A stretch of 64,000 bases of DNA from Serratia liquefaciens ATCC 27592 (GTDB taxonomy: Bacteria > Pseudomonadota > Gammaproteobacteria > Enterobacterales > Enterobacteriaceae), in the NCBI RefSeq assembly GCF_000422085.1, contig NC_021741.1, forward strand, positions 4,278,001 through 4,342,000, in the 5' to 3' direction. The position numbers were made by a program, and so were the translations under genes. Shown here one piece after another: positions 47,479 through 61,929 of the stretch (positions are counted from its first letter, which is position 1; the number at the start of each line of letters is the position of its first letter). The notes below the pieces were generated by a model that was given only the letters and a program-made list of their open reading frames with translations, was not told where the DNA came from and searched no databases.

Positions 47479-47716
47479 GTTTTACTCCAGGTCGGATTAA
47501 AAAATCAGTCAAGTTTTCTATTTTCTCAGACTCCGCATTAAAACGGCAATCCCTAATACCAAATGAGAGCGAGTTCACAACTTATTAGCACAATTGGTCG
47601 GTTTTTCGGAATAACACTATTTTCCCGATTGTCGGCGTACACTAGTCTCAAGCGGCAAGATTTCCCTAAACTAAAATGACACGACCCCCTTGTTACTCTC
47701 ACAGGAAAATGGCTTT

Positions 47717-48469
47717 ATGAAGATCCGTACCTCTTTGATTGCATTAAGCATTGCCACTTTGGTAAGCGGCTGTCAAAACCTGAACACCGATACCCTGATG
47801 CAGTCTGGCGCGCAGGCGTTCCAGGCCGCGACGCTGAGCAATAACGACGTAAAAATCCTGAGTGATAAATCCTGCGCAGAGATGGACAGCAAGGCACAAA
47901 TCGCGCCGGCCGACAGTACCTATGCCAAACGCCTGAACAAAATCGCGGCGGCGCTGGGAGATAATATCAACGGCACGCCGGCCAACTATAAGGTCTACGT
48001 CACAAAAGACGTGAATGCCTGGGCAATGGCCAACGGCTGTATCCGCGTTTACAGCGGGCTGATGGACATGATGACCGACAATGAAGTGGAAGGCGTGCTG
48101 GGCCACGAAATGGGCCACGTGGCGCTGGGCCATACCCGCAAAGCAATGCAGGTCGCTTACGGCACCGTGGCATTGCGTACCGCAGCGGCCTCGACCGGCG
48201 GCATCATAGGGTCGCTGTCGCAGTCACAGTTGGCGGATATGGGCGAGAAGCTGGTTAACGCTCAGTTCTCCCAAAAACAGGAAAGTGAAGCCGATGACTA
48301 TTCGTTCGATCTGCTGAAACAACGCGGCATCGACCCGAACGGCCTGGTCACCAGCTTTGAAAAACTGGCTAAAATGGAGGCCGGCCGTCAGAGCAGCATG
48401 TTTGACGATCACCCCGCTTCCGAAGCGCGCGCACAGCATATTCGCGAGCGCATCGCAGCAGGCAAGTAA
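47717..48469 (+). CDS. loiP: Outer-membrane metalloprotease lipoprotein LoiP
   Basis: LoiP (YggG) is a zinc metalloprotease of family M48 held in the outer membrane by lipid; in E. coli it works with BepA. The 250-residue product has a lipoprotein signal with lipobox LVSGC (Cys19), the zinc motif HEMGHVALGH near residue 133, and the third ligand Glu in KQESEADDYSFDLL near 195. The ATG at 47717 has AGGAAAAT upstream and gives a proper signal peptide; the longer frame from 47690 does not. It is divergent from tktA and convergent with the third accessory block. Confidence 0.95.
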   Translation: MKIRTSLIALSIATLVSGCQNLNTDTLMQSGAQAFQAATLSNNDVKILSDKSCAEMDSKAQIAPADSTYAKRLNKIAAALGDNINGTPANYKVYVTKDVNAWAMANGCIRVYSGLMDMMTDNEVEGVLGHEMGHVALGHTRKAMQVAYGTVALRTAAASTGGIIGSLSQSQLADMGEKLVNAQFSQKQESEADDYSFDLLKQRGIDPNGLVTSFEKLAKMEAGRQSSMFDDHPASEARAQHIRERIAAGK

Positions 48470-48508: not shown

Positions 48509-50149
48509 TCAGTACAATGTCTTTTGCGGTGGCCCGGCGAAGGTTAGCGGCCCAATGCTGTTCATATCCACTTCCACCACCGACGGCCCCGGATAATTAA
48601 TCGCTTCCGCCAGCACGCCGTTGAACTGCGCCGCGCTGTCCACTTTCCACGCCTTCAGCCCCATCGCCTCGGCAACCTGGGTAAATGCGGGAGTGTGCAG
48701 TTCGTTATAATACTGACGGCCGGCAAAATACTTGTCCTGAATGCCCCGCATCACGCCGTAACCGCCGTCGTTCATGATCAACAGGGTAATATTGGCCTGC
48801 TCCTGCGCCATGGTTGCCAGTTCGCCCAGGCCTAACGCCAGCCCCCCGTCCCCGACCAGCCCCACCACCTTGCGCTGCGGGTTGGCGATCGCCGTGCCAA
48901 TCGCCATTGGCAGCCCCATGCCAATCGCCCCGGCCAGCGAGTGAATGTTGCAGAGCGGCGAAATGGCGCGGAACAAACGGCTGCCCCACACGCTGCCGGA
49001 AACGGTGATATCACGCACCAACAGACCGTCCTGCGGCAACGCAGCGGCGATGGCGTCGTTCAATTTTGCATACTCTCCCGACTGCTGGCGCAGCGCACTT
49101 TCCGCCTGCTGTATCGCCGTGGCTATCTCGGCATCCCACTCGGCATTCACTTTTTCACCCGGGCTCAAACGAGCAGCCAGCGCGTTAAGCAAGGCGCCGC
49201 AGTCACCGTTGATTTGCTCGTCGGCCAGATAGTTGCGGTTGGCCGCCGCCGGATCGATATCAATTTGAACCAGCGGGCGCGGCAGCGGCAACGTCCAGGT
49301 ACGCGTCTCATTGCTGCGCAAGCGTGAACCGGCCACCAGCGTCAAATCGCACTGCGTCAGGATCGCCTCAATGCTCGGTGAGTTGTGGAACGCACGCAGG
49401 CTGCGCGGATGCCTATCAGGCAGGATACCGCGCCCATGGGTGCTGGAGATCACCACCACGCCGGCATCCGCCAGTTTGCGTACCGCATCAGCGCAGGCCA
49501 GCGCACCGCCACCCAACCACAGCAATGGGCGTTTGGCCTGTTTCACCCGCTGATACAGGCGCTCAACCGCCTCGTCACTGGCCGCCGGCAGCGGCGCAGG
49601 CGCCACGGGCTGGCTCAGCACCGAACTGGAAACCAGGCTACTTTGAATATCGATCGGGATCTCGACCGCCACCGGGCCACAAGGCACCGTCTGCGCATCG
49701 AGGATAGCCCGCTGGATCACGGCCACCGCCTGTTCCGCTGAGTTGACCCGATATGCGCGTTTGGAGCAGGCGCGCAGGAAACCCAACTGATCGCGGGTCT
49801 CATGAATGAACCCGGCGTCGGCATCCAGATAGGCCTTCTCCACCTGGCCGGTAATGTGCAGCAACGGCGTGTTGGCATTCAGCGCTTCGATCATGGCACC
49901 GACCGCATTGCCGGCCCCCGCGCCCGTGCTGGTCAAGGCTACGCCCAGACCGGAGAAACGGCCGTGGGCATCGGCCATGGTGACCGCGCCCGCTTCGCCA
50001 CGCGCCGGTACGAAACGGATGTTGCCACGTTGCCCTACCGCATCGGCAATCGGCAGATTATGAATCGAAATGATGCCGTACATCGCCGACACCTCGTACT
50101 GTTCCAGAGTCCGGGCTATCGCCTCACCAACCGTTATTTTATCGCTCAT
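48509..50149 (-). CDS. ThDP-dependent enzyme, benzoylformate-decarboxylase/acetolactate-synthase type
   Basis: A 546-residue thiamine-diphosphate enzyme with the usual three domains. The N-terminal pyrimidine domain has the activating Glu (near residue 52, ARGEAGAVTMADAHG), the middle domain runs about 190-330, and the C-terminal domain has the ThDP/Mg motif GDGGLALGLGELATMAQEQA (about 430-450) ending IMNDGGYGV. The first loop reads GIISIHNLPIAD instead of the common GxPG, so it is an atypical member. Possible roles are decarboxylation of a 2-oxo acid or carboligation. GTG/ATG choice: two ATGs in tandem (50152, 50149); the second is better spaced. It is the last gene of the nine-gene operon. 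Confidence 0.8.
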   Translation of the reverse strand: MSDKITVGEAIARTLEQYEVSAMYGIISIHNLPIADAVGQRGNIRFVPARGEAGAVTMADAHGRFSGLGVALTSTGAGAGNAVGAMIEALNANTPLLHITGQVEKAYLDADAGFIHETRDQLGFLRACSKRAYRVNSAEQAVAVIQRAILDAQTVPCGPVAVEIPIDIQSSLVSSSVLSQPVAPAPLPAASDEAVERLYQRVKQAKRPLLWLGGGALACADAVRKLADAGVVVISSTHGRGILPDRHPRSLRAFHNSPSIEAILTQCDLTLVAGSRLRSNETRTWTLPLPRPLVQIDIDPAAANRNYLADEQINGDCGALLNALAARLSPGEKVNAEWDAEIATAIQQAESALRQQSGEYAKLNDAIAAALPQDGLLVRDITVSGSVWGSRLFRAISPLCNIHSLAGAIGMGLPMAIGTAIANPQRKVVGLVGDGGLALGLGELATMAQEQANITLLIMNDGGYGVMRGIQDKYFAGRQYYNELHTPAFTQVAEAMGLKAWKVDSAAQFNGVLAEAINYPGPSVVEVDMNSIGPLTFAGPPQKTLY

Positions 50150-50201
50150 CATCTGCCTTCTTATTGTGTTCGTTGTAGGGGTTACGCACCGTCGCTCAAA
50201 G

Positions 50202-51671
50202 CTAATCGCTCCAGCGGTTCGCCTGATGGCTCAGCGCCAGGTAAAGGCTTTTCTGCTGCATATAGGCCTTGATGCCGTGCAGACCCTTTTCGCGGCCCAG
50301 ACCGCTCTCTTTGAAACCGCCGAAAGGCGTAGAAATAGAGAATGTTTTGTAGGTGTTGATCCACACGGTGCCGGTTTCCAATTGCTCCGCCAGCGCCATC
50401 GCCCGCGGGAAATCCCGGCTCCAGATCCCGGCGGCCAGCCCATACACCGAATCGTTGGCTTGCTCGATCAACTGTTGTTCGTTATCGAACGGCAGTGCCA
50501 CCAGTACCGGGCCAAAAATCTCTTCCTGGCAAGCGCGGGCACGGTTACTCAACCCTTCGATAATCGTTGGCAGGTAATAGCTGCCGCCGGCCAGCAGCGG
50601 ATCGGCCGGCGCTTCGCCGCCTATCACTACCCGGCCGCCTTCTTGCTGCGCCAGCGCCACATAATCCGCCACGCTTTGGCGATGCTTGTCGTTAATCAGC
50701 GGGCCGAGGTGCACGCCCGGCGTCAGCGGATTGCCGACCCGCAGCCCGGCCGCCAGCTCGCTCAGGCGCGCCAGCAGCGGCTGGTATAGCGAGCGATGCA
50801 CAAACAGCCGCGAGCCGGCAATGCAGGCCTGGCCGGCGGAGCTGAAAATGCCGTAGCAGATCCCGCGAGCCGCCTGTTCCAAATCGGCGTCCTCCAGCAC
50901 GATGGTCGGCGACTTGCCGCCCAGCTCCAGCGAGGTAGGGATCAGCTTCTCGGCGGCGATATGCGCCAAATGGCGACCAGTATTGGTCCCCCCGGTAAAA
51001 GAAATCTTTTTCACTAACGGGTGACGCGCCAGTGCCTCGCCAATCACCGAGCCTTTGCCCGGCAACACGCTAAGCAGTCCGGCGGGCAGGCCTGCTTGCT
51101 CAAACAGTTCCGCCAGTTTTAGCGCCATCAGCGGTGTCGCTTCGGCCGGTTTGAGGATCACCGCATTGCCCGCCGCCAGTGCGGGGGCCACCTTTTGCAT
51201 CTCACTGGCGATCGGCGAGTTCCACGGCGTAATGGCCGCGATCACGCCCAGCGGCTGATACTGGCTCAACGTCATGATCTCCGCGCTGCGCTGGGTCGGC
51301 AGTTCGCCCTCCAGCACCTCGCAGGCAGCGGCAAAGTAGCGAGCCGTCGCCGCCGCGCTGGCCACCAGCCCACGGGTTTCCGCCAGGGGTTTGCCGTTGT
51401 CGCGGGTCTGCAACTGCGCCAGCTCTTCCAGTTGCGCCATAATCAGGTTGCTGACGCGGTACAGAATGTTGGCTCGCTGATGCGGCACCAGCCCACGCCA
51501 CTCGGGGGCCCGCCAGGCGCGTTCCGCCGCGGCTACCGCATCATTGACGTCTTCAATACTGGCGGCACGCAGCCGCGCATTCACGCTGCCGTCGGCCGGG
51601 AACTGCGAGGCCATTTCATCGCCACGCCCTTCACACCAACGCCCAGCCACAAAAATCTTTAACCTTTCCAT
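50202..51671 (-). CDS. Aldehyde dehydrogenase family protein
   Basis: A 489-residue NAD(P)-dependent aldehyde dehydrogenase. Visible are ITPWNSPIASEMQKVAPALA, coenzyme site SFTGGTNTGRHLA, catalytic Glu in TSLELGGKSPTIVL and catalytic Cys in SSAGQACIAGSRLF, ending with PFGGFKESGLGREKG. It resembles enzymes for hydroxymuconic or similar semialdehydes in aromatic pathways, but the exact substrate cannot be told. It lies 49 bp before the ThDP-enzyme gene and 15 bp after the aspartate-dehydrogenase-like gene. CAGGAGCGAGT precedes the ATG. Confidence 0.87.
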   Translation of the reverse strand: MERLKIFVAGRWCEGRGDEMASQFPADGSVNARLRAASIEDVNDAVAAAERAWRAPEWRGLVPHQRANILYRVSNLIMAQLEELAQLQTRDNGKPLAETRGLVASAAATARYFAAACEVLEGELPTQRSAEIMTLSQYQPLGVIAAITPWNSPIASEMQKVAPALAAGNAVILKPAEATPLMALKLAELFEQAGLPAGLLSVLPGKGSVIGEALARHPLVKKISFTGGTNTGRHLAHIAAEKLIPTSLELGGKSPTIVLEDADLEQAARGICYGIFSSAGQACIAGSRLFVHRSLYQPLLARLSELAAGLRVGNPLTPGVHLGPLINDKHRQSVADYVALAQQEGGRVVIGGEAPADPLLAGGSYYLPTIIEGLSNRARACQEEIFGPVLVALPFDNEQQLIEQANDSVYGLAAGIWSRDFPRAMALAEQLETGTVWINTYKTFSISTPFGGFKESGLGREKGLHGIKAYMQQKSLYLALSHQANRWSD

Positions 51672-51686
51672 ACTCGCTCCTGCCGT

Positions 51687-52481
51687 TCAGGCAATAAAAC
51701 CACCGTCGATCAGACGGCGGCAGGCTTGTACCGCGCTCAGCGCCGCCAGGGTTGATGTCTTGGGATTGCTTGCCAGCGGGTTGCCGCTCAGCTCAATGTG
51801 AAACTCACCGAAATTGCCGCACACCTGCAGCCGGTGGGTATTGCGTCGGGTCGCGGGATCGACCAGCAACCGCACCCGGGTGGCGTCCATTCCCAGGCCG
51901 TTGAGCGCAATGGTCGCCGCCACATTGGCGTTCGCCGGGAATAACCGCGCCGCCTCCCGCGCCGAGCCTTCGAAAAACACCTGCGCCTCGCTTACCGCAT
52001 CGAGATCAATCAATTGCTCTGCCATACTGCCGCGCCAGCTGGCCGGACTTTTACACGCCTGATAAGTGACGCTGTCCAGACCGCCCTCACGTGCCGACGC
52101 CAAGCCGTCCATGCCCGCCACCGCACCGGACAGCACGATCACCTGGCCCCGATGCTGCCGACAGGCTTGCTGCAAACGCTGCTGCAACGCGGCATCCGCT
52201 AACGCGCCGGTAGAGATCACCGCTAAAGGCCAACCGCGCGTGACCACCGCCTCACCGAACTCCGCCACCGCCTGCTGGCTGGCGCACTCCAGCACCAGAT
52301 CCGGCTTTTCAGCACAGTGGTCGGGGTGGGTCAACGCCAGCACCTGGCCACCAAAGGCGTTGGCAATCGCCGCATGATGAGCCGCACGCGCGACAATCCA
52401 ACCAACGCTCACCCCGTCCGGCAGGCGGGACAGCACCTCTGTGGCCATTGCGCCGTAACCAATCATCATGATCTTCTTCAT
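51687..52481 (-). CDS. L-aspartate dehydrogenase-like protein (NadX family)
   Basis: A 264-residue NAD(P)-dependent oxidoreductase of the aspartate dehydrogenase family, which interconverts L-aspartate and iminoaspartate/oxaloacetate. Rossmann motif MIGYGAMATEVLSRL, then STGALAD, the active-site LSGAVAGMDGLASAREGG, FPANANVAATIAL and the C-terminal SGNPLASNPKTSTLAALSAV (conserved His/Asn/Pro region) are seen. In some bacteria the family works in NAD synthesis, but here it is in the middle of an aromatic operon, so it may act on an amino- or imino-acid from ring cleavage. AGAGG precedes the ATG. Confidence 0.83.
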   Translation of the reverse strand: MKKIMMIGYGAMATEVLSRLPDGVSVGWIVARAAHHAAIANAFGGQVLALTHPDHCAEKPDLVLECASQQAVAEFGEAVVTRGWPLAVISTGALADAALQQRLQQACRQHRGQVIVLSGAVAGMDGLASAREGGLDSVTYQACKSPASWRGSMAEQLIDLDAVSEAQVFFEGSAREAARLFPANANVAATIALNGLGMDATRVRLLVDPATRRNTHRLQVCGNFGEFHIELSGNPLASNPKTSTLAALSAVQACRRLIDGGFIA

Positions 52482-52498
52482 CTTTTCAGCCTCTGCGG

Positions 52499-53293
52499 TT
52501 AAAGATGGCGGTTAAAGCCGCCGGAGACGTCCAGCGCGGCCCCGGTGGTAAAGGACGCCAGAGGCGAAGCCAGGAACAGCAGCGCCCGTGCCGGCTCCTG
52601 CGGTTTCCCCAGGCGTTTCATCGGGATGCCGCGTCGTTCGGCAATCGCCGCCGTCCACTGCTCCCAGCTTTGATCTTTATCGCTGCGCTCGTCGAAGCGG
52701 CGGCGCCACTGGCCGGACTCCACCATGCCCAACAGGATCGAGTTGACGCGAATGCCCTTGTCCACCAGCTCTTTCGACAGCGTCAGCGTCATGTTGAGCA
52801 GTGCCGCACGCGCCGCCGAGGTGGCGATCATGTGTTCTTCCGGCTGCAAGGCCAAAAGCGAATTCACACAGGTGATGGAAGCGATATCCGAACGCTCCAA
52901 CGCCGGCAAAAATGCCTGCACCGGGTTAATCACGCCGAACAGCTTTAGCTCCGCCTCATGCAGCCAGGCGGTGCGCGGCGTTTGATCAAAATGCGCGACG
53001 AACCCCTGGCCGGCGTTGTTGATCAACAAATCTACGCCGCCGAAGCGTGCAGTCACCTGGGCGGCAAACTGCGTTACCTGCGACTCGTCCAGCACGTCGC
53101 AGCACAGTGCCAGGATCTCCGCCTGCGGAAACTCATGGCGCAGGCTGGCTTCGGCACCGGCCAGTTTGTCCGGATTGCGGCCGCAAAATGCCACCTTCGC
53201 GCCTTCCGCCAGCAGCAGACGCAGGGTTTCGAAACCGATGCCCGACGAACCGCCGGTGACCACCGCGACCCGTTTCTCAAGCTGAAAATTCAT
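52499..53293 (-). CDS. SDR family protein lacking the catalytic Tyr-Lys pair
   Basis: A 264-residue short-chain dehydrogenase-type protein. The cofactor motif VVTGGSSGIGFETLRLL, the NNAG motif in LLINNAGQGF and the Ser of the active site (CVNSLLALQ) are intact. Where YxxxK is expected, however, the sequence is IATSAARAALLN, so Tyr and Lys are replaced by Thr and Arg. It may be a binding protein, or an enzyme with changed chemistry. The start codon overlaps the hydrolase stop (ATGA). Confidence 0.85.
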   Translation of the reverse strand: MNFQLEKRVAVVTGGSSGIGFETLRLLLAEGAKVAFCGRNPDKLAGAEASLRHEFPQAEILALCCDVLDESQVTQFAAQVTARFGGVDLLINNAGQGFVAHFDQTPRTAWLHEAELKLFGVINPVQAFLPALERSDIASITCVNSLLALQPEEHMIATSAARAALLNMTLTLSKELVDKGIRVNSILLGMVESGQWRRRFDERSDKDQSWEQWTAAIAERRGIPMKRLGKPQEPARALLFLASPLASFTTGAALDVSGGFNRHL

Positions 53294-54108
53294 GGTTGAA
53301 TTGCTCCCGTAAAATCCTGCAGATAGCGGTTAAATTGCCCCGGCGCATCGAGATAGCTGGCATGCCCGGCCCCCTCAATCAGGCGCAGTGTCGCGTCCTG
53401 CTGTTGCGCCAGCACCGCCGCCGCTTCCGGTGGCGTGATCCGATCGCAGTCACCGCACCACACCTGCAACGGGCCGCGGTACTGCGCCAGATAGCGGCCG
53501 ATATCGTCGTTGGCCAGCATCCAGGCGGCATTGAGAAAACCCTCGGGATCCAGCTGCTGCATGCCGTTGCGTACCCAGGCAATATCTTGAGGATCCGCAC
53601 CTTCACGCAGTAACGCCGCCGCCCGCTGCTCGCCGTAGCCCTGCGGCCCAAGCTGCTCAATCAGCTGTTTTCTCTGGCTATAAACCTGTTGGCGTTTCTC
53701 CAGCGGTGCGTTGGCGTAGCCCTGCGCCGGATCCGCCAACACCAGCCCACATAATCCGTCGGGATAACCGGCAGCATAGGCGCTACCGATCAAGGCGCCG
53801 AGCGAGTGACCGACGATCAGCGGTTGCTCCAACTGCAAGTGCGCCACCAGCGCCGCCAGCGCGGCGGCGTAGGCGGCGGCATCCGGCTCGCTGACCGTCA
53901 GCGGCAGGCTGCCGCCGTAGCCTGGGGCGTCCCAGGCCAGCAAGCGATGACCGTCGGCCAGCCCCGAGTCATTGAACTGCTTGATCCACGAGGCCGAACC
54001 GGAACTGATGCCGTGCAGCAACACCACCGGGCGACCGTGACCCGCCTCGCGCCAGCTCAGGGTAAACTCCCCGCAGCGCGCCTGCTGACGTTGCGCCAGG
54101 CCGTTCAT
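53290..54108 (-). CDS. Alpha/beta hydrolase, possible meta-cleavage product hydrolase
   Basis: A 272-residue alpha/beta-hydrolase with a full triad: nucleophile Ser in VGHSLGALIG, Asp in VWCGDCDRITP and His in EGAGHASYLDAP; the oxyanion segment is LLHGISSGSASW. Carbon-carbon bond hydrolases of meta-cleavage pathways (such as DmpD/MhpC) have this layout, and its operon has an extradiol dioxygenase, so that role is likely but not proven. It starts with the ATG at 54108 that shares a base with the cupin stop (TGATG); the longer frame overlaps the cupin gene. It overlaps the SDR start by 4 bp. Confidence 0.85.
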   Translation of the reverse strand: MNGLAQRQQARCGEFTLSWREAGHGRPVVLLHGISSGSASWIKQFNDSGLADGHRLLAWDAPGYGGSLPLTVSEPDAAAYAAALAALVAHLQLEQPLIVGHSLGALIGSAYAAGYPDGLCGLVLADPAQGYANAPLEKRQQVYSQRKQLIEQLGPQGYGEQRAAALLREGADPQDIAWVRNGMQQLDPEGFLNAAWMLANDDIGRYLAQYRGPLQVWCGDCDRITPPEAAAVLAQQQDATLRLIEGAGHASYLDAPGQFNRYLQDFTGAIQP

Positions 54109-54632
54109 CAGTTGCGTTTCACTTTGGATAACGGGTGATCCGCCGGGTAGGTCGGGGTTTCCGGTTTGGCGGTACCGAGCATCACGCACATCAATGCCTC
54201 TTCTTCGCCGTGGTTGAACAACCCACGGTAGACTCCGGCCGGCACCGAGATCAGATCGCGCTCTTTCAGCTTGGTTTCGTAATACTCGCTACCGTCCTGG
54301 ATCATCAGCGTGATGCTGCCCTTCAGCATAAAGAACACCTCTTCCACGTCATCGTGCAGGTGCAACGGGCCCTCGCACTTCGAAGGCAGCACCATGGTGG
54401 AGAAGGTGAAGTTGCCTGCCGGAATGGTATTGGTGTCGCTGGCTACCCCGGTGGCGCCGGTACCGATGTAGCGCATCTGCGCACGGCGGTATTTCGGGTC
54501 GTAATCGGCCTGGAACTTCAACGCGTTCCAGTCATATTTACGGCCTTCAAAGCGGGCGATACGCGATTCCACCCAATGCTCAATCGATTGATCCTGCGGC
54601 TTGACGCCAGCTTGCTTCTCAACCTGGGACAT
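54108..54632 (-). CDS. Cupin domain protein
   Basis: A 174-residue single-domain cupin. The first cupin motif is GPLHLHDDVEEVFFMLKG (near residue 87), with the His-x-His and Glu metal ligands in place; the second is SVPAGVYRGLFNHGEEEA, in which a Tyr stands near the usual final His. It could be a small ring-cleaving dioxygenase, an isomerase, or a binding protein. The N-terminal 50 residues (HWVESRIARFEGRKYDWNAL) are not typical of known cupins. GAGGAG precedes the ATG at 54632. It lies 33 bp after the MFS gene. Confidence 0.8.
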   Translation of the reverse strand: MSQVEKQAGVKPQDQSIEHWVESRIARFEGRKYDWNALKFQADYDPKYRRAQMRYIGTGATGVASDTNTIPAGNFTFSTMVLPSKCEGPLHLHDDVEEVFFMLKGSITLMIQDGSEYYETKLKERDLISVPAGVYRGLFNHGEEEALMCVMLGTAKPETPTYPADHPLSKVKRN

Positions 54633-54665
54633 GTTGTAACTCCTCTGTTGAATCAAACGGTTAAA

Positions 54666-55928
54666 TCAATACTTCTTCAGTAACGGCAGCAGAATGATGC
54701 AGCCGATCAGGGCCATCACCACCAGGAACAGCAAGCCGTTATCCATGTTGCCGGTGGCGGCGATCAGCGCCCCCATCAGCACCGGTGCCAGCGCACCGGC
54801 AAAATTGCCCAATCCGTTAAAAATACCGCCGGCGGTGGCGCTGACCTTGCTGCTGGTGGCTTTCGCCAGCAGGGCAAAGATGTTTGGCGCACCGGCCCCC
54901 CACATAAAGGTGCTGAAAGCCATGGCGGCGATCACGCTGTAAGTGCCCTGCAACTGCAGCACCACGGCCAGCCCCAGCCCGGCGCCGCACAGCGAGACAA
55001 AACAGGCCAGTGCGCGACGATCCAGCTTGTCCGACAGCCAGGCGCCGACCACTTCGCCCAGCAGCATGGCGATAAACGGCAGCGATGACAGATAACCGGC
55101 GTGCTCCAGATGAATACCTTTGCCCTTGATCAGGTAGCTCGGCAGCCAGCCGTTCATGCCCCACAGGTAGGTCAGGAAGGCGATGTTAAACAGGCAGATC
55201 ATCCAAAAATGCGGGTTGCGCAGCAGCTCATGGCGATGCAGTTTACGTTCGGCAATAGCCGGTTTGGAAACGCTAGCCGCCGCGGGGCGTGACACGTTGA
55301 GATGACGCATGCCGAACAGCACCAGCAGCATCACCGGCAGCGTCAGGAACGCCATAAAGAAGAAGGTGGTCTGCCAGTCAAAGGTGTTAAGGATGTACAG
55401 CGTAACCGGGAAGCCGAGCGCGGCGCCCAATGGCGTACCCAGCAGCCACAACATGGTGGCGCGTGCCTGCAGGCGCTGCGGGAAGGCCTGGCGAATGATG
55501 GCGTAGGCCATTGGCAGCAGCGGACCTTCGGCAATGCCGAGGAAAATGCGCAGCGTCATCATGCTGTGATAAGAGCGTGTCATGCCCATAAGCACCATCA
55601 GTACGCCCCACACCACCATCATGCCAATCAGCACCTTGACCGGGTTCAAGCGGTCGCCAATTCCGCTCAGCAACATCGAAGAGATGCCGTAGGAGAACAA
55701 AAACGCGCTCATCAGCAACCCCAGCCGCGCCGGGTCAAAACTGATGCCCAGCGCCTGCTGGAATTCAGTATCGGAAAACAGTGCCGCGATGCTGATCTTG
55801 TCGAAAAACGCCAGCAGCACGCAGGCAAACAGCGCGATGGGCACCGACCAGCGCACTCGTTGCTGCGGATTTTCGGCAACAGCATCCCCCACCCGTTCAG
55901 CGCGGGCGTCAATCTCTTGCGTAGTCAT
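54666..55928 (-). CDS. MFS transporter of the aromatic block (ACS-like)
   Basis: A 420-residue inner-membrane carrier of the major facilitator superfamily, with 12 predicted helices. ALFACVLLAFFDKISIAALF is helix 1, with an Asp typical of the ACS branch (DRVN-like, here DKIS), followed by GISSMLLSGIGDRLNP and RIFLGIAEGPLLPMAYAII. It lies in the operon between the reductase and the cupin genes and probably brings in the aromatic substrate or a related organic acid. CGGGAGCGTTTC precedes the ATG, and the reductase stop is 24 bp upstream. Confidence 0.87.
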   Translation of the reverse strand: MTTQEIDARAERVGDAVAENPQQRVRWSVPIALFACVLLAFFDKISIAALFSDTEFQQALGISFDPARLGLLMSAFLFSYGISSMLLSGIGDRLNPVKVLIGMMVVWGVLMVLMGMTRSYHSMMTLRIFLGIAEGPLLPMAYAIIRQAFPQRLQARATMLWLLGTPLGAALGFPVTLYILNTFDWQTTFFFMAFLTLPVMLLVLFGMRHLNVSRPAAASVSKPAIAERKLHRHELLRNPHFWMICLFNIAFLTYLWGMNGWLPSYLIKGKGIHLEHAGYLSSLPFIAMLLGEVVGAWLSDKLDRRALACFVSLCGAGLGLAVVLQLQGTYSVIAAMAFSTFMWGAGAPNIFALLAKATSSKVSATAGGIFNGLGNFAGALAPVLMGALIAATGNMDNGLLFLVVMALIGCIILLPLLKKY

Positions 55929-55952
55929 GAAACGCTCCCGAGGTTACGGGCG

Positions 55953-57164
55953 TTATTTCAACGCCATCAAAGAAAACTCCGCATCCGCCAACTGCTGCGG
56001 TTCCAACACGCGCCCACTGGCCAGCCAGCGTTTGCCCAGCTTGATGGTACGAGCGTCGTTAAACGCCACCATTTGCACCAACTGACGATCGGCATTTAAC
56101 GTAAAGAACACCTGCGATTGCGGCGTGCGCCGCACCACATGGTGCACGCCACCGGTCGGCACGCCGAGGATCTGGATATTGGCATCGTATTGATCCGACC
56201 ACAGCCAGGCCACGTCATCGTAAGGGGCGGCAAAGGCGTCCAGCATCGCGCAAGCGGTGCTGATCGCCTGATTCTGCGCATAGGCCCAGGACTGCAGGCA
56301 CAGGCCCAGCGTCGGGTGACGCGCCACGTCGCCGGCGGCGAAAATCGCCGGGTGGCTGGTGCGCCCCTGGCCGTCAACCACGATCCCCACGTCAATCTTC
56401 AGCCCGGCCCTGCGCGCCAGTTCCAGATTCAACTCGACGCCGATCCCCACCACCACCAGATCAAACGGCTGAGGATCGCTGACGCCGCTGCCGATCCAGG
56501 CGCTACCGTCACGATCTTCCAACTGAATGTCACCGCAGCCGCAGTGCAGGGTCACGCCCTGCTGTTGATGCAATTCCAGCAGCGCCTGGGAGACATCCGC
56601 GCCAACACTGCGCATGCACAGCGCCGGCTGGCGTTCAAAGACCGTCACGTCAGCACCGAGGCGCCGCGCCGAAGCGGCAATCTCCAGCCCAATCCAGCCA
56701 CCACCGACGATCGCCAGTCGACGGCATCCTTGCAGCGCCTGACGCAGCTTCGCCGCATCATCCCAGGAACGCAGCGTCATCACCCGAGGGTGACTGGCCC
56801 AACGGGTGTCCGGCAGGCGCGGTCGGCCACCGGTGGCAATCAGCAGTTGATCAAACTGCAGCTGCCGACCGTCGCTGAGGCTGACGATTTGTTTTTTTGC
56901 ATCAATGGATTCGGCACGTAACGGCCGGCACCAGTTGAGATTCAACCCGGTGACCACCTGTTCGCTGAACAGTCGGCTGAGCGGCGCTTCGCCGTCCAGC
57001 AACGCCGCCTTGGAAAGCGGCGGACGTTCATAAAAGTCATAGGGTTCGTCGCTGATCACCGTCAGCCGGCCCGCATAGCCACGATCGCGCAGCGTTTTCG
57101 CCGCCCAACCGCCGGCCTGGCCACCGCCGATAATGACGATCCCCGCCGCTTCTGGCTGGCTCAT
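55953..57164 (-). CDS. FAD-dependent ferredoxin reductase of the Rieske oxygenase system
   Basis: A 403-residue NAD(P)H:ferredoxin reductase of the BphA4/ThcD type. The FAD fold is IIGGGQAGGWAAKTLRDRGY near residue 12, followed by ERPPLSKAALL; the NAD fold is IVGGGWIGLEIAASARRLGA near residue 155, and IFAAGDVAR closes the FAD site. It probably passes electrons to the Rieske ferredoxin at 61217-61534 and so to the oxygenase at 59842-60885. The start ATG at 57164 overlaps the VOC stop by 4 bp (ATGA). The frame continues 21 codons upstream but that would overlap the VOC gene. Confidence 0.87.
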   Translation of the reverse strand: MSQPEAAGIVIIGGGQAGGWAAKTLRDRGYAGRLTVISDEPYDFYERPPLSKAALLDGEAPLSRLFSEQVVTGLNLNWCRPLRAESIDAKKQIVSLSDGRQLQFDQLLIATGGRPRLPDTRWASHPRVMTLRSWDDAAKLRQALQGCRRLAIVGGGWIGLEIAASARRLGADVTVFERQPALCMRSVGADVSQALLELHQQQGVTLHCGCGDIQLEDRDGSAWIGSGVSDPQPFDLVVVGIGVELNLELARRAGLKIDVGIVVDGQGRTSHPAIFAAGDVARHPTLGLCLQSWAYAQNQAISTACAMLDAFAAPYDDVAWLWSDQYDANIQILGVPTGGVHHVVRRTPQSQVFFTLNADRQLVQMVAFNDARTIKLGKRWLASGRVLEPQQLADAEFSLMALK

Positions 57165-58102
57165 AGCGCCTCCGGTTTTTTCTGCTGGCGGCGCGTATCG
57201 TGGTCGATCCCCCCTTCCACCGCCCACTCGGTGAACGACACCAGCGAGTGTTCCAGCTCGCGCGGCTGCCAGTTTTCAGTCAGATAGTCATCGTTGGTGT
57301 AGTACTCAAACGCGCCGCCAGTCGGGCTGTTGACGTACCAGAAATAGGCTGAGGAAATCGGATGGCGACCGGGGCCGATAAAGGTGCTCCACTTCTCTTT
57401 GTTCATAGCAATACCGCCGCCGATCACCTCGTGGATGTCGCGCACGGTAAAAGCTACGTGATTCAGGCCACGTGGACGATTCGGCAATTTCAGCAGGAAC
57501 AGGTTGTGATGCCCGCCGCGCGCCTGAGTGCGCAGGAACACTGCTCGATCGATATAGCGATCCGAGACCTGGAAGCCCAGTACCTCACGGTAGAAACGTT
57601 CGGTGGCGGCCAGATCTTCGACAAAGAACACCACGTGGCCAATATTGATCGGCTGTGCCTGCGCATATACCGGGCTGGGCTGATCGATGCGGCGCACATC
57701 ACCCCATTGGTTGATTGGTGATACCGGTAAATCGACTCCGCGCTGTTGGCTGACGCTAAAGCGCAGCGTCATACCGTTCGGATCGATACACTCCAGCTCT
57801 TCCCCCACCTGACGGAAGCCCGGCATCTGCGCCAACAGCGGCTGCAAAGCGGCCAATTCCGCCGGGCTGCCCACGCCCCAGGTCATGCGGCGCAGAGTCG
57901 AACCGCCCTCAAACGCCGCCGGCAAGGTCTCGCTCTGCAACGGATGCAGCACCACGCGCGCCCCACTCAGGGTGGTGAATTCACGTTGACGTTCGCCCCA
58001 GTGCTGTTGTGCCGCCTGCAGGCCGAAGTCCTGCATGAATTTTTCGCAGGTTGGCAGATCTTCGACGCCAAATTCCAGTTTTTCGATTCCGATTACGCTC
58101 AT
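57161..58102 (-). CDS. Extradiol ring-cleavage dioxygenase (VOC family)
   Basis: A 313-residue type I extradiol dioxygenase-like protein with two VOC (glyoxalase-fold) modules. In the C-terminal module all three iron ligands appear: His in INIGHVVFFVED (near residue 150), His in RGLNHVAFTVRD (near 218) and Glu in GGAFEYYTND (near 270). The N-terminal module (EKLEFGVEDLPTCEKF) lacks them, as in BphC/XylE relatives. It probably opens the ring of a catechol made by the oxygenase and SDR of this block. GTGAGGC precedes the ATG. It is the first gene of the second operon, after a 168-bp gap. Confidence 0.86.
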   Translation of the reverse strand: MSVIGIEKLEFGVEDLPTCEKFMQDFGLQAAQQHWGERQREFTTLSGARVVLHPLQSETLPAAFEGGSTLRRMTWGVGSPAELAALQPLLAQMPGFRQVGEELECIDPNGMTLRFSVSQQRGVDLPVSPINQWGDVRRIDQPSPVYAQAQPINIGHVVFFVEDLAATERFYREVLGFQVSDRYIDRAVFLRTQARGGHHNLFLLKLPNRPRGLNHVAFTVRDIHEVIGGGIAMNKEKWSTFIGPGRHPISSAYFWYVNSPTGGAFEYYTNDDYLTENWQPRELEHSLVSFTEWAVEGGIDHDTRRQQKKPEAL

Positions 58103-58270
58103 TGTTGTGCCTCACGTTCTCGCTGAATGCGGTTTTCAGGCATGACAAACCCCGGCCCCTGTTTGCCATGAGCCTTATCCCTGCCTGATTCATTGGTAGG
58201 GGACGAATACAGTCGCCCCGATTAATGCGAACGCAGCTTGCAGCCCCCTACGAAAACAAGGGGTTGTCAG
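58103..58270 (-). other. Gap between the IclR gene and the VOC gene with two hairpins
   Basis: No gene is seen in these 168 bp. On the minus strand two imperfect hairpins occur soon after the IclR gene: CCCCT-TGTTTTCGT-AGGGG (58246-58264) and GGGGCGA...TCGTCCCC (58200-58220). They may partly terminate the first operon, and a separate promoter for the VOC operon probably lies downstream. I could not define it. Confidence 0.4.
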
Positions 58271-59065
58271 TTAGCCGACGTTAGCCTGCGGCGGCGCGCC
58301 CAGAAAGCCGGAGATTTTCTCTGCGGCGTCACGCACTTCCATACGCAGCCGTTCGCGATCTGCTTTTGGGATCTCATCGAACGGCACCATAATGCTGACC
58401 ACGGCCTCGACCCGCTGCTCGCGGTTAAAGATTGGATAGACGATCGAAGAGATACCATGGCGGAAAAACGACTCGCCAATCACATAGCCGCGCGCCTTAT
58501 CCTGCTGCACCATCTGCCACAGCGCTTCACGATCTGCCGGGGTCCCCGGACCGCTGCCCGGCAGTTGTTCCTGCGGATAGAGCTGGTCGAATTCGTCGCG
58601 GGTAGCGCTGGTTAGCAGCATGCGGCCCAGTGAGGTTTGGTGCACCGGCAGGCGGGTGCCGACGCTGACCTGATTGATTTGCGAACCGGCGGCGCTGACG
58701 CGGGCGATGTAGATCACGTCGCGCTCATCACGGATCGCCAGATGACTGCTGCACTGGCTGCGATCGCGCAGTTGCTCTATCACCGGCTGACCGGCCTGGG
58801 CAACGTCCAGAGAAGCGATATATTCAAAGCCGAGGCGCAGCACTTTGATGCCCAGCGCAAAGGTGTTGGTCCGTGGGTTGCGCTCCAGAAAACCCAGATG
58901 CTCCAGAGTTTGCACCACGCGATAGGCGGTAGCCTTTGGCATGTCGACCAGGCGATGCAATTGGGCAAAAGTCATTTCCTTATGCTGCTCGCCAAACGCC
59001 AGCAACAGTTGTAACCCGCGATCCAGTCCTGGGATCAGATATTTACACGCTTGATCGTCCGCCAT
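58271..59065 (-). CDS. IclR-family regulator of the aromatic block
   Basis: A 264-residue IclR regulator with an N-terminal winged helix (MTFAQLHRLVDMPKATAYRV, residues about 31-50) and a C-terminal effector domain: IYIARVSAAGSQINQVSVGT, LPVHQTSLGRMLL, ARGYVIGESFFRHGISSIVYP. The Arg and His in the last segment are common in the ligand site of aromatic-sensing members such as PcaU and PobR. AGGAGCAGC precedes the ATG. It lies 24 bp after the SDR gene, at the end of the operon, and probably binds the palindrome at 61557-61580. Confidence 0.85.
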   Translation of the reverse strand: MADDQACKYLIPGLDRGLQLLLAFGEQHKEMTFAQLHRLVDMPKATAYRVVQTLEHLGFLERNPRTNTFALGIKVLRLGFEYIASLDVAQAGQPVIEQLRDRSQCSSHLAIRDERDVIYIARVSAAGSQINQVSVGTRLPVHQTSLGRMLLTSATRDEFDQLYPQEQLPGSGPGTPADREALWQMVQQDKARGYVIGESFFRHGISSIVYPIFNREQRVEAVVSIMVPFDEIPKADRERLRMEVRDAAEKISGFLGAPPQANVG

Positions 59066-59089
59066 GTGCTGCTCCTGGCTAAAGGTTGA

Positions 59090-59845
59090 TTAGTTAAAAA
59101 CAAAGCCGCCGTTAACCGGCAACAGTTGGCCGGTCACGAAATTCGCCAACGGCGACAGCAGGTAGAGCACCGAGCCATTAACGTCGTCAGGGTGCTGTGC
59201 CCCGGCCAATGCACGCCCTTGTTCGTACAGTTGATGACGCTCGGCGGGCACGTATTCGGTGGCCTCTACCCGCGTCAGTCCCGGTGCGATTGCGTTCACG
59301 CAAATCCCCTGCGGACCCAGTTCACGCGCCATTGAGCGGGTCATGGAGATGATCGCTCCTTTGCTGGCCACGTAAGCCATCAGGCGCGGTGCGCCCCACA
59401 GTGCGGTATCCGAAGCCACGTTAACGATCTTGGCATGTGGGGTTTGCGCCAACAGGGGTACCGCTGCCTGACTCACCAGCCAGGTACCGCGTACGTTGAC
59501 CTGCATCACCCGATCCCACAGATCGATATCGTATTCCATCATGGTTTTGCCACCGACGCCGGTAGCCAGCGCGGCGTTGTTCACCAACCCGTCGATCGCA
59601 CCGCCTTCGGCAATGGCGTTGAATGCCGCGCTGATCGACGCCGGTTCGGCCAAATCGATCACCTGCGTTTCAACCTGTGCGCCCTGCTCGCGCAGGTTCG
59701 CGGCGCTGTCTGCCAGTTCATCCGCCAGAATATCGCACATCACCACTCTGGCACCGGCCTCGCTGATGGCTGCGGCGAAACTCCGCCCCAGCCCGCGCGC
59801 CGCGCCGGTCACCACAATGCGTTTTCCCGTCAGCAAGCCGTTCAC
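59090..59845 (-). CDS. SDR oxidoreductase, probable dihydrodiol dehydrogenase
   Basis: A 251-residue short-chain dehydrogenase with a full catalytic set: VVTGAARGLGRSFAAAI at the cofactor site, NNAALAT, Ser in VNVASDTALWG and Tyr-x3-Lys in AYVASKGAIISM. It is the natural partner of the adjoining Rieske oxygenase and may oxidise its cis-dihydrodiol product to a catechol; other alcohol substrates cannot be excluded. The start codon is GTG (59845), with GGAGG 9 bases before it, overlapping the oxygenase stop codon (GTGA). Confidence 0.86.
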   Translation of the reverse strand: MNGLLTGKRIVVTGAARGLGRSFAAAISEAGARVVMCDILADELADSAANLREQGAQVETQVIDLAEPASISAAFNAIAEGGAIDGLVNNAALATGVGGKTMMEYDIDLWDRVMQVNVRGTWLVSQAAVPLLAQTPHAKIVNVASDTALWGAPRLMAYVASKGAIISMTRSMARELGPQGICVNAIAPGLTRVEATEYVPAERHQLYEQGRALAGAQHPDDVNGSVLYLLSPLANFVTGQLLPVNGGFVFN

Positions 59846-60885
59846 TGCGCCGCCTCCAGCTCACTGAGCTTCGCCAGCTGCTTCTGCGCTTCTTTTTGCA
59901 TCATGCGGCGCAAGCGAGACAACCCCACATCATGCTGATACAGATACTCGCGGCCACGCGCGTTCGGGGCCATATTTTCCAGCACGATACGATCCTGCTC
60001 CAGTACGTCCCAGTGCAGCGATTCCAGGCGGTTGCGATACATAAAGCGCCACATGTCACGCTGCCAGTCTTTCACCTTACGGATACGCCAGAAGAACACC
60101 CGGCAGTGATCCTTATCTTCCGGCACCACCATGCCGATGATCCAGAAGTGACCACCCGGCCCGAAGCGCTTTTTGTACGGGATCGACAAACGCATCCAGT
60201 AGGCGCCGCTGCTGCCAAACTCCACCCAGTCAAAGTTAACGCCGATCTGACCATTCTTCTTAAAGATGAAACCGTTGTCGGTCGGCTCCAGCGCCATGTC
60301 CGCCTTGCGATCCCCTTCCGCCATCGAGTGCGAGGACGAATGCAGGTAGGTGCCGTGCATCGGATCCATCACGTTTTCCAGCGCGTACTGGTAATTGCAG
60401 TCCCAACTGGCGGTGCACAGGAAGTTGCTGTAGGCCGCTTCGTCAGCCAGTTCCGGCGGGAAGGTCAATTCAGCCGGCTCTTCATCCGCCGTCACGCCGA
60501 AATAGAGGAACACCGCACCGTAGGCCTCTTTGGCTGGGTAAGAGCGCAGGCATTTCTGCCCCACCAGCGGACAACGATCGACCGCCGGCACGTCTTTGAC
60601 CGTACCGTCGCCGCCCACTTCCACGCCGTGATACCAGCAGGCGATGCGATCGCCCAGGTTCCAGCCCATGGAAAGGCGCGCACCGCGATGCGGGCAGCGA
60701 TCTTCCAGCGCATGGATCGCGCCGTCGCCGTCGCGCCACACCACAATCTGTTGCTCCAGCCGCGTAATGCCCACCGGGTTATTGCCGATTTCCCAACTGG
60801 CCAGCACCGGATACCACATGCCGCGCAGCCCCTGGTCGAGATAGTCCTGTAAGGTTTGTGCGGAGGATGTTGTGTTTGCTGTCAT
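59842..60885 (-). CDS. Rieske non-heme iron oxygenase, catalytic (alpha) subunit
   Basis: A 347-residue ring-hydroxylating oxygenase. The Rieske centre is DRCPHRGARLSMGW (near residue 62) with Cys-x-His, and IACWYHGVEV (near 87) with Cys-x2-His. The mononuclear iron site is NVMDPMHGTYLHSSSH (near 192), giving Asp-x3-His-x4-His. The C-terminus (QKEAQKQLAKLSELEAAQ) is a charged helix. Length and layout resemble phenoxybenzoate/vanillate-type oxygenases, which have no separate beta subunit, and none is seen here. GGGAG precedes the ATG. The substrate is unknown, probably an aromatic acid or ether. Confidence 0.88.
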   Translation of the reverse strand: MTANTTSSAQTLQDYLDQGLRGMWYPVLASWEIGNNPVGITRLEQQIVVWRDGDGAIHALEDRCPHRGARLSMGWNLGDRIACWYHGVEVGGDGTVKDVPAVDRCPLVGQKCLRSYPAKEAYGAVFLYFGVTADEEPAELTFPPELADEAAYSNFLCTASWDCNYQYALENVMDPMHGTYLHSSSHSMAEGDRKADMALEPTDNGFIFKKNGQIGVNFDWVEFGSSGAYWMRLSIPYKKRFGPGGHFWIIGMVVPEDKDHCRVFFWRIRKVKDWQRDMWRFMYRNRLESLHWDVLEQDRIVLENMAPNARGREYLYQHDVGLSRLRRMMQKEAQKQLAKLSELEAAQ

Positions 60886-60905
60886 TGTCTTCTCCCGGAT
60901 GCTGC

Positions 60906-61214
60906 TCAGAAACCGTTAACGTGAAGGAATTCGCGGAACGCCGTCTCATTCCACGGCTGGCCATTGCGATCGAACAGGCGACGCTGATTCAGGGCGCTAA
61001 CGATCTGCTCCAGCTCTTCTGCACCCTGATCGAAGATCTCTTCCAGTGCCGTGACCAACTCGGTCTCGAAACCGTCGGGTACGCGAGCGCGGGTTTGCCA
61101 GATGACGTTCTGAAATTGGCCCGGCTGATGGATTTGGCCATTGCCGCCTTCGCGCGCCGGGATCACCTGTTGGGTGTCCGGCAGCCAGGGATTGAAATCG
61201 GTGATGTGCTGCAT
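60906..61214 (-). CDS. Small protein with a recombinase-like helix-turn-helix pattern, in the Rieske operon
   Basis: A 102-residue soluble protein of unknown function, with no recognised catalytic motif. The N-terminal half (MQHITDFNPWLPDTQQVIPA) is rich in Pro and polar residues. The C-terminal part LEQIVSALNQRRLFDRNGQP followed by WNETAFREFL has the LN-x(n)-R-x-G-x-PW-x-L pattern also found in the DNA-binding end of large serine recombinases. It lies between the oxygenase (20 bp) and the ferredoxin (2 bp) genes, so it is probably an accessory to the oxygenase, not a recombinase. GGAGGAG precedes the ATG. Confidence 0.7.
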   Translation of the reverse strand: MQHITDFNPWLPDTQQVIPAREGGNGQIHQPGQFQNVIWQTRARVPDGFETELVTALEEIFDQGAEELEQIVSALNQRRLFDRNGQPWNETAFREFLHVNGF

Positions 61215-61216
61215 GA

Positions 61217-61534
61217 TTACTCCTCCGCAATAAAGGTGATTTGGATTTGATTGTCGATCACCCGGGTGGCATAGGTTTGCAGATCGCGGCCGCCTGGCTC
61301 ACGCAAGCATTGGCCGGTACGTACGTCGAACAATGCTTCGTGCAACGGGCATTCGACCTTGCCGTCATCAACAAACCCCTGGCTGAGCAAGGCATAGGCA
61401 TGTGGGCAAACGTCTTCCAGCGCGTAATAGTTGCCGTCGATCAGATACACCCCGACCTCTTTCCCTTCCACGTTGGCGGAGAAAGGAAAATCTTCTTTCA
61501 CCTGAGACACTTCACACACTTTCGTCCAGCTCAT
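61217..61534 (-). CDS. Rieske [2Fe-2S] ferredoxin
   Basis: A 105-residue Rieske ferredoxin of the BphA3/NirD-like type that shuttles electrons from the reductase to the oxygenase. The cluster ligands are Cys-x-His in EDVCPHAYALLSQG (near residue 43) and Cys-x2-His in VECPLHEALFDVRTG (near 62). There is no signal peptide, so it is cytoplasmic. It is the first gene of the operon ferredoxin - small protein - oxygenase - SDR - IclR. The ribosome site AGAGGAC is 8 bases before the ATG, and the IclR-type palindrome ends only 23 bp upstream. Confidence 0.9.
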   Translation of the reverse strand: MSWTKVCEVSQVKEDFPFSANVEGKEVGVYLIDGNYYALEDVCPHAYALLSQGFVDDGKVECPLHEALFDVRTGQCLREPGGRDLQTYATRVIDNQIQITFIAEE

Positions 61535-61556
61535 TGCTTTTGTCCTCTATCTGATT

Positions 61557-61580
61557 GTTTCATATATGAAACTCAGTTTC
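61557..61580. promoter_or_regulatory. IclR-type operator palindromes before the Rieske operon
   Basis: GTTTCATATATGAAAC (61557-61572) is a perfect 16-bp palindrome; GAAACTCAGTTTC (61568-61580) overlaps it and is symmetric around its centre. GAAAC/GTTTC arms are typical of IclR-family operators. They lie just downstream of the predicted start of transcription, where a repressor would block RNA polymerase. The regulator is probably the IclR protein at 58271-59065. Confidence 0.7.
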
Positions 61581-61595
61581 TTATTTAATACACTC

Positions 61596-61623
61596 ACTAT
61601 AAGTCTGGTGAAACTTTCGTCAA
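61596..61623 (-). promoter_or_regulatory. Candidate promoter of the Rieske operon
   Basis: On the minus strand TTGACG (61618-61623), a 16-bp spacer and TATAGT (61596-61601). The predicted start, near 61589, is 9-32 bp ahead of the palindromes. The spacer contains a further GTTTCA half-site. Confidence 0.6.
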
Positions 61624-61929
61624 GAGAGCAAAGCGGCAATTGTTAATGGAAAGTTGTTTAAACATGACAAATGCGGGAAGGATCACGAAAAAATGCACCG
61701 ATATGAAAAACTGATGAAATCTGTGCTTTCTATCACTAATTCATGGATAAAAAGACGTTGATCTGGCTGATGCAATGCGAGTAAAAGTGCTATCTCGCTG
61801 TCTGAAACACCCTTTTTGATAACAATAAATTTACATAAAAACGACTCAAACCTGCTTTTCACCACTGTGAAATCAGCGGGTTAGTTTACTGCTGTCTAAA
61901 TTCGTTATTCGCCCGCCAAAGGAGCGTAC
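61624..61929 (+). promoter_or_regulatory. Upstream region of the divergent MFS gene
   Basis: The rest of the 395-bp divergent gap. It is A/T rich and holds no gene. The promoter of the MFS gene at 61930 must lie here, but I see no clear hexamer pair and no second copy of the IclR-type palindrome. Confidence 0.3.

Follow-up and report, generated by a model that had tools for sequence, protein, structure and literature searches.

The gene cluster and its conservation

The window analysed here is a 64,000-nucleotide stretch of the Serratia liquefaciens ATCC 27592 chromosome (contig NC_021741.1, positions 4,278,001 to 4,342,000; host genome of 5.28 Mb in 2 contigs), in which 14 minus-strand genes fill positions 48509-61534 (Table 1). 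They encode a Rieske oxygenase (RO) with a ferredoxin and a ferredoxin reductase (FdR), two short-chain dehydrogenases/reductases (SDR1 and SDR2), an extradiol dioxygenase of the VOC family, an alpha/beta hydrolase (ABH), an aldehyde dehydrogenase (ALDH), a thiamine diphosphate (ThDP) enzyme, an aspartate dehydrogenase (AspDH), a cupin, a small HTH_62 protein, a major facilitator superfamily (MFS) carrier and an IclR regulator, and family searches confirmed the assignments that a sequence-only reading of this DNA had made. We propose that this cluster very probably serves to take up kynurenate (4-hydroxyquinoline-2-carboxylate) and to degrade it completely under aerobic conditions, as the 'quinoline' branch of bacterial tryptophan catabolism, a proposal that builds on the gene content, gene order and active sites of the cluster and on the link to tryptophan dioxygenase (TDO), formamidase and aminotransferase genes observed in its relatives.

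The two gene groups of the cluster are separated by 168 bp (58103-58270), and the whole is flanked by loiP (47690-48469, plus strand) on one side and by an MFS gene (61930-63177, plus strand) and rluF on the other. The starts of the reductase, at 57164 (its ATG overlapping the VOC stop in ATGA), and of ABH, at 54108, are probable refinements made from the sequence.

Table 1. Genes and candidate control sites of the cluster (ORF, open reading frame).
Feature	Position	Strand	Basis
Promoter-like site TTGACG-16-TATAGT, ferredoxin-first operon	61596..61623	-	10/12 matches
16-bp perfect palindrome GTTTCATATATGAAAC, candidate IclR operator	61557..61572		GTTTC-N6-GAAAC pattern across loci
Rieske-type ferredoxin of the oxygenase	61217..61534	-	PF00355; best NCBIfam AndAb, below cut-off
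HTH_62 small protein, oxygenase partner gene	60906..61214	-	PF20552; retained in rearranged copies
RO, proposed kynurenate 7,8-dioxygenase	59842..60885	-	PF00355 + VanA_C
SDR1, proposed dihydrodiol dehydrogenase	59090..59845	-	PF13561; Ser-Tyr-Lys kept
IclR-family regulator	58271..59065	-	PF09339/PF01614
VOC extradiol dioxygenase, proposed 7,8-dihydroxykynurenate 8,8a-dioxygenase	57161..58102	-	homology, iron ligands
FAD ferredoxin reductase (FdR)	55953..57164	-	Pyr_redox_2 + Reductase_C; HcaD-like, below cut-off; longest ORF starts 57227
MFS carrier, proposed uptake	54666..55928	-	PF07690
Cupin, proposed pyridine-ring-opening dioxygenase	54108..54656	-	PF07883
ABH, proposed enamide hydrolase	53290..54108	-	PF00561; longest ORF starts 54189
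SDR2, Ser-Thr-Arg replacing Ser-Tyr-Lys; possibly side-chain C=C reductase	52499..53293	-	NF005468 over cut-off
AspDH	51687..52481	-	NF009828 403 bits, cut-off 177; 2dc1 8e-33
ALDH	50202..51671	-	PF00171
ThDP enzyme, proposed 2-oxoacid decarboxylase	48509..50152	-	NF005470 826 bits, cut-off 495

A search for the same gene set across genomes, which the earlier reading had suggested, was made on the best 80 of 148 relatives from a scan of named genomes, 73 of which had enough flanking DNA. The 13 non-regulator genes follow one order, ferredoxin, HTH_62, RO, SDR1, VOC, FdR, MFS, cupin, ABH, SDR2, AspDH, ALDH and ThDP, in all 73 testable loci (a strict script count gives 71, as one additional upstream MFS match is present in the remaining two), an agreement beyond chance, and the IclR gene stands between SDR1 and VOC in 63 of them. 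Among the hosts of the cluster are Serratia, Yersinia, Enterobacter, Klebsiella oxytoca, Raoultella, Citrobacter, Providencia, Erwinia, Acinetobacter, Aeromonas, Marinobacterium, Zobellella and Neisseriaceae, the same-order loci spanning several gammaproteobacterial orders plus Neisseriaceae, and the Burkholderiales copies being rearranged. Rearranged clusters lie on Caballeronia plasmids, and on plasmid pHR1a of Novosphingobium resinovorum the cluster is split and rearranged; in the stretch fetched from the latter (L115), at whose edge one SDR gene is cut, no SDR1 orthologue was seen. A VanB-like reductase replaces the ferredoxin and FdR in Cupriavidus campinensis and many other genomes. Nine genes persist through rearrangement (RO, HTH_62, SDR1, VOC, ThDP, ALDH, cupin, ABH and AspDH), and all nine are held by each of the 15 complete copies among 18 genomes of a family (f21) that, judged from layout and similarity, is probably Burkholderiales; the copies of G490, G546 and G528 are cut by ends and are not among the 15.

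Within the genus, VOC is present at 91-100% identity in 21 of 25 genomes (our own included), the four without it being genomes of 1.5-3.6 Mb, and the protein of the window is 96-98% identical to the VOC of S. liquefaciens, S. plymuthica, S. proteamaculans and others. Farther out the distribution is patchy, since a class-wide sample gave VOC in one of 369 genomes, our own, and a phylum sample in 21 of 397 at E ≤ 1e-30, 11 of these being 48-100% identical. Five contexts of distant VOC matches (31-37% identity; L126-L130) were read and held no cluster.

Two copies deserve separate mention. An intact cluster with generic gene names is present in a clinical K. pneumoniae, 2020C07-038, on a 692-kb linear record filed as a plasmid (L254); an IS5-like element follows some 1.5 kb past its ThDP gene. 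In Caballeronia NK8, plasmid pNK84 (L112 25873-28936) carries, roughly 10 kb away from the complete cluster, a second ferredoxin-HTH_62-oxygenase set with a ThDP gene after it.

Active sites and nearest characterised relatives

Active-site residues were counted in relatives with extractable ORFs, the window included, and the totals differ between proteins for this reason. The three iron ligands of VOC already read from the sequence (H156, H215 and E266, two His and one Glu) are kept in 103/103, and the nearest solved structure is homoprotocatechuate 2,3-dioxygenase. The RO keeps the Rieske and Asn/Asp/His/His sites (C64, H66, C83, H86, N171, D174, H177 and H182) in 92/92; its nearest solved relatives include carbazole dioxygenase (3e-21) and 2-oxoquinoline 8-monooxygenase (1e-11). 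The active site of SDR1, described earlier as intact, is indeed so (S145 in 102/102, Y158 and K162 in 100/102), and the two rows reading Thr and Arg, as in SDR2, are probably misassigned. SDR2, on the other hand, is as unusual as had been noted: S145 is retained in 104/104, with T158 in place of the catalytic Tyr in 99 and R162 in place of the Lys in 100, a replacement kept across orders.

Full conservation is likewise seen for C283 and E249 of ALDH (99/99), for the S129, D249 and H276 triad of ABH (70/70), and for H216 in the catalytic region of AspDH (96/96), an assignment on which the curated family score and the match to 2dc1 agree; E53 of the ThDP enzyme is kept in 98/99 (one gap). The cupin keeps H99, H101 and E105 of the first motif, plus E106, in 71/71, and its weak sequence matches are acireductone and quercetin dioxygenases. 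The AlphaFold model of the HTH_62 protein has a low-confidence N-terminus and three helices.

Among the family matches listed for the 14 genes there is no 2-hydroxypentadienoate hydratase, aldolase or acylating acetaldehyde dehydrogenase, the usual lower-pathway genes whose lack had been pointed out. The earlier view of the core, as oxygenation, dihydrodiol oxidation and extradiol ring opening followed by an odd lower pathway, stands, and this core is strongly conserved.

A proposed route for kynurenate degradation

In the known bacterial kynurenate pathway the 7,8-dihydrodiol and 7,8-dihydroxykynurenate are followed by 8,8a cleavage, and then by a 2-oxoacid decarboxylase and an aldehyde dehydrogenase. 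A hydratase and an aldolase are not needed in such a route, because a 7,8-dihydroxyquinoline cut at 8,8a becomes a pyridine bearing a -CH=CH-CO-COOH chain, whose breakdown would require reduction of the C=C, decarboxylation of the 2-oxoacid and oxidation of the aldehyde. We propose that kynurenate, taken up by the MFS carrier, would be converted by the RO, ferredoxin and reductase to the 7,8-cis-dihydrodiol, which SDR1 would oxidise to 7,8-dihydroxykynurenate, and that VOC would cut this between C8 and C8a to give 5-(3-carboxy-3-oxopropenyl)-4,6-dihydroxypicolinate. The side-chain C=C would be reduced by SDR2 (in copies lacking SDR2, by a different reductase), the resulting 2-oxoacid decarboxylated by the ThDP enzyme, and the aldehyde oxidised by ALDH to 5-(2-carboxyethyl)-4,6-dihydroxypicolinate.

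The known part of the pathway ends at this compound, which the accessible text of PMC10543884 lists as a tryptophan-pathway metabolite. In it N1-C2(COOH)-C3-C4 would be an aspartate skeleton and C6-C5-CH2-CH2-COOH a 2-oxoglutarate skeleton, which would account for an AspDH, a hydrolase that splits an amide and a cupin that uses O2, as well as for the formation of glutamate and alanine from kynurenate reported for pseudomonads (PMC11354673, from the portion available). The cupin would then open the pyridine ring with O2 at C4-C5, ABH would break the enamide to release 2-oxoglutarate and iminosuccinate, and AspDH would reduce the latter to aspartate; the carbon balance of such a scheme closes (C10 = CO2 + C5 + C4). 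SDR2, cupin, ABH and AspDH are placed purely on chemical grounds, and the side-chain reduction and the three last reactions are the steps that we propose with least assurance. Hydrolysis had been read as part of the core: the hydrolase with its triad is there, but it would probably act after the opening of the second ring and not be a classical meta-cleavage-product hydrolase.

Association with tryptophan catabolism in relatives

The sequence-only reading recognised no named pathway and named no substrate. No named cluster matches now either, while kynurenate can be proposed as the substrate because the gene neighbourhoods and phyletic pattern of relatives point there. We searched for TDO (PF03301) in 30 + 27 cluster genomes. 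In one of them (G614) only 2 bases separate a TDO gene (752039-752899, minus strand; TIGR03036 430 bits, cut-off 390.7) from the end of the cluster's VanB-like reductase gene (751062-752036, plus strand), and behind the TDO, on the same strand, follows a homologue of the formamidase KynB, assigned by its 62% identity to a KynB over the cut-off; a kynureninase gene is also present, elsewhere in this genome. In two Marinobacterium species a long-form TDO gene (388-418 aa; L136 8626-11074, L137 14424-15590) is located about 6.7 kb upstream of the ferredoxin gene, with a permease and an amidohydrolase gene between TDO and the cluster; one of these TDOs, scored against TIGR03036, is below the cut-off, and their proximity supports the kynurenate link weakly. 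One of the two also overlaps a class V aminotransferase-like gene without a curated family.

The phyletic pattern was analysed in 299 genomes of family f21, with VOC present in 30 (E ≤ 1e-70), kynureninase (KynU) in 193 (E ≤ 1e-40) and TDO in 197 (E ≤ 1e-15). Among the TDO-bearing genomes the cluster occurs in 7 of 11 without KynU versus 18 of 186 with it (Fisher p 5.5e-5, uncorrected for phylogeny). After post hoc removal of G542, G596 and G646, with weak TDO matches, it occurs in 7 of 8 KynU-free genomes (p 1.9e-6), and kynU was possibly missed in the eighth (G709), as its TDO is on a 5.3-kb contig. The same switch is seen within genera g308 and g326, where the kynU-free member (G615 and G630, respectively) has the cluster and the sampled kynU-bearing ones (G515 and G689; G702) are without it.

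The organisation of the TDO operons, read in stretches of 13-14 kb around TDO, agrees with this pattern. No kynU is found there in any of the seven KynU-free cluster genomes; four of these have a cyclase-type KynB near TDO (three were tested, with TIGR03035 over the cut-off), and three an alpha/beta-hydrolase match (best curated family lipase, below the cut-off, with one only 35% identical), which the sequences weakly suggest to be the other formamidase type. The contrast between G702, without the cluster (KynB-KynU-TDO), and G630 of the same genus, with it (KynB-TDO), illustrates the difference. An aromatic amino acid transaminase is encoded near TDO in four of the seven (three with NF006719 over the cut-off, the fourth 72% identical), in 2 of the 18 cluster genomes with KynU, beside a second TDO copy, and in none of 21 cluster-free controls with KynU, i.e. 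in 6/25 versus 0/21 (p 0.025), and the corresponding figures for RidA are 3/7, 2/18 and 0/21 (p 0.054). These controls were not random, being the 20 strongest cluster-free TDO matches (G668 and G491, close to contig ends, were skipped) plus G702. Transamination of kynurenine yields kynurenate, so that TDO operons with an aminotransferase could make the proposed substrate; kynurenine aminotransferase activity is known for aromatic aminotransferases.

Alternative substrates and alternative chemistry

Several observations weigh against kynurenate as the substrate or against parts of the route. A TDO match was obtained in 33 of the 57 cluster genomes, and only three have it less than 10 kb from the cluster, the other matches being far away or on another contig, a distance that draft assemblies cannot always settle. 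The seven KynU-free cluster genomes fall in six genera, 18 f21 cluster genomes have KynU as well, including G624 and G695 of g319, the genus of the kynU-free G526, and five have no TDO (G467, G476, G593, G671 and G725). SDR2 is missing from six of the 15 complete f21 copies (G630, G526, G504, G476, G671 and G554), and in the cupin a conserved R144 stands where the second-motif His is usual. In the genome of the window itself the kynureninase match is below the cut-off, and TDO has neighbours that show no kynurenine link; these, read by eye, resemble aldolase, acylating dehydrogenase and CitE (L139 9200-16541; C1 at about 3.204-3.212 Mb), perhaps forming a biosynthetic operon. We thus set this TDO aside as a source of kynurenine, and kynurenate would be supplied from outside in this Serratia. 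That most cluster genomes have no nearby TDO and that the association spans six genera only could also mean that the cluster acts on another aromatic or bicyclic substrate and that its association with TDO and kynureninase is a phylogenetic accident, to which we give very little credence, given that independent lines concur: TDO next to the cluster in G614, TDO operons free of kynU, the switches inside genera g308 and g326, and a gene set that fits known chemistry.

A close relative of kynurenate, xanthurenate or quinaldate, could be the main substrate, with kynurenate a minor one or a mere intermediate. Genes for molybdenum hydroxylases of two types do lie near three beta-type copies (one Cupriavidus-like layout; L114 20533-23140, L125 17125-19783, L122/L144 2670-6335), and an FAD monooxygenase gene is near or in five loci (L152 7134-8291, L194 14488-15624, L114 24052-25188, L144 9983-11119 and L082 5054-6205), the nearest solved relative in L152 being 6-hydroxynicotinate 3-monooxygenase; the enzyme recurs in non-enterobacterial copies and might widen the substrate range, e.g. 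to xanthurenate. However, the molybdenum hydroxylase of G309 is nearest to 4-hydroxybenzoyl-CoA reductase and not to quinoline 2-oxidoreductase, so that we did not take these enzymes as proof of a quinoline substrate, SDR1 would be superfluous for an 8-hydroxy substrate, and TDO, KynB and the aminotransferase indicate kynurenate over the close quinoline carboxylates, which makes this alternative unlikely. A stronger challenge concerns the chemistry: with kynurenate as the substrate, the second ring could be opened without O2, by reduction and hydrolysis to glutarate and aspartate, and the cupin would be an isomerase or accessory protein. The cupin has no third conserved metal His, and its low-confidence model (confidence 63) has weak matches throughout, to 3,4-ketoisomerases no less than to quercetinase, for which reason the fold search was put aside. 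In contrast, its nearest solved sequences, again weak matches, are O2-using dioxygenases, and the historical product glutamate suits 2-oxoglutarate better than glutarate; we regard the O2-free opening as doubtful but far from negligible.

Relation to known pathways

The kynurenate ('quinoline') pathway of Pseudomonas was reportedly worked out chemically in the 1960s by Hayaishi, Taniuchi and others. Like the route proposed here it has a dihydrodiol, dehydrogenation, extradiol cleavage, side-chain decarboxylation, aldehyde oxidation and glutamate-family products. Its reactions are known, and no gene assignment for kynurenate degradation was found in the open-access literature searched (subscription papers fall largely outside this scope). 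Serratia marcescens 2CC-1 is associated with quinaldate, and P. acidovorans has a quinoline pathway. For the kynurenate pathway, the available portion of PMC11354673 cites Horibata 1961.

The kynureninase/anthranilate route (kynB-kynU-kynA), as outlined in the accessible parts of PMC9162365 and PMC4938989, has the same TDO and formamidase start, but seven cluster genomes have no kynU near TDO and four have an aromatic aminotransferase. According to the text available of PMC9162365, Acinetobacter uses kynurenine through KynU, in a cluster distinct from the present one. The classical meta-cleavage pathways (catechol, biphenyl, hydroxyphenylpropionate) share the Rieske oxygenase, dihydrodiol dehydrogenase, VOC dioxygenase and alpha/beta hydrolase, whereas the ThDP enzyme, cupin and AspDH set the cluster apart from them, as does the lower-pathway deficit described above.

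At the level of single proteins, only the N-terminal part of the RO aligns well with carbazole 1,9a-dioxygenase and 2-oxoquinoline 8-monooxygenase, and the scores of dicamba and ketosteroid oxygenases are similar. E-2-(acetamidomethylene)succinate hydrolase of vitamin B6 degradation (3kxp), an alpha/beta hydrolase that cleaves an opened-pyridine-ring product, is a distant relative of ABH (1.3e-8), with esterase and BphD entries scoring higher. The AspDHs described as characterised in the available text of PMC5554190 are those of K. pneumoniae, Delftia and R. eutropha, with identities to ReuAspDH of 42% and 65%; the mutual identities of cluster AspDHs (44% and 62-67%) fit these values, a comparison by reported identities only, and in the K. 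pneumoniae record L254 the AspDH gene lies inside the cluster. In A. baumannii, A1S_0956-0958 (aspartate dehydrogenase, betaine-aldehyde dehydrogenase and acetolactate synthase large subunit), which the accessible part of PMC5757984 reports as raised with mucin, have the AspDH-ALDH-ThDP order of the cluster.

Regulation

The palindrome GTTTCATATATGAAAC (61557-61572) sits between the promoter-like site (61623-61596, minus strand) and the ferredoxin start. Three promoter-like sites were found in 58000-62100, versus 1.9 expected, so that such a site by itself says little. The GTTTC-N6-GAAAC pattern is found in the 300 bp preceding the ferredoxin ORF in 64/67 Enterobacterales loci versus 0/28 other loci, mostly at 31-49 nt, and is missing in L044, L049 (with little upstream DNA) and L072. 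The whole genome has one exact copy of the palindrome pattern and one site with one mismatch, and a reversed control pattern gave one. IclR would probably repress at this candidate operator, just downstream of the promoter-like site.

Implications

As judged from the sequences, Serratia and many of its relatives most likely use kynurenic acid as a nutrient by means of the cluster, and its genes are probably the ones still missing for a pathway that only the chemistry of the 1960s has described. If so, several orphan activities would gain sequences, entries named 'VOC family protein' and 'thiamine pyrophosphate-binding protein' would gain a function, and a physiological role would be found for the aspartate dehydrogenases examined as biocatalysts. 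As a tryptophan product, kynurenate is bioactive in animals (brain, immune system), so that a degradation route conserved among Serratia, Klebsiella, Enterobacter and Acinetobacter would offer a bacterial sink for it. A still wider reading, to which we give somewhat less than an even chance, is that cupin, ABH and AspDH form a new pyridine-ring-opening module (C4-C5 oxygenolysis, enamide hydrolysis, and iminosuccinate trapped as aspartate) and that HTH_62 is a small partner dedicated to the oxygenase; a widespread group of bacteria, gut-associated, environmental and opportunistic, would then act as a sink for this neuro- and immunoactive metabolite of the host.

A further ORF of the window

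Outside the cluster, a plus-strand ORF of 721 aa at window positions 45376-47541 gave no Pfam or NCBIfam match; the minus-strand ORF of 664 aa that overlaps it (45484-47478) is probably the real gene.

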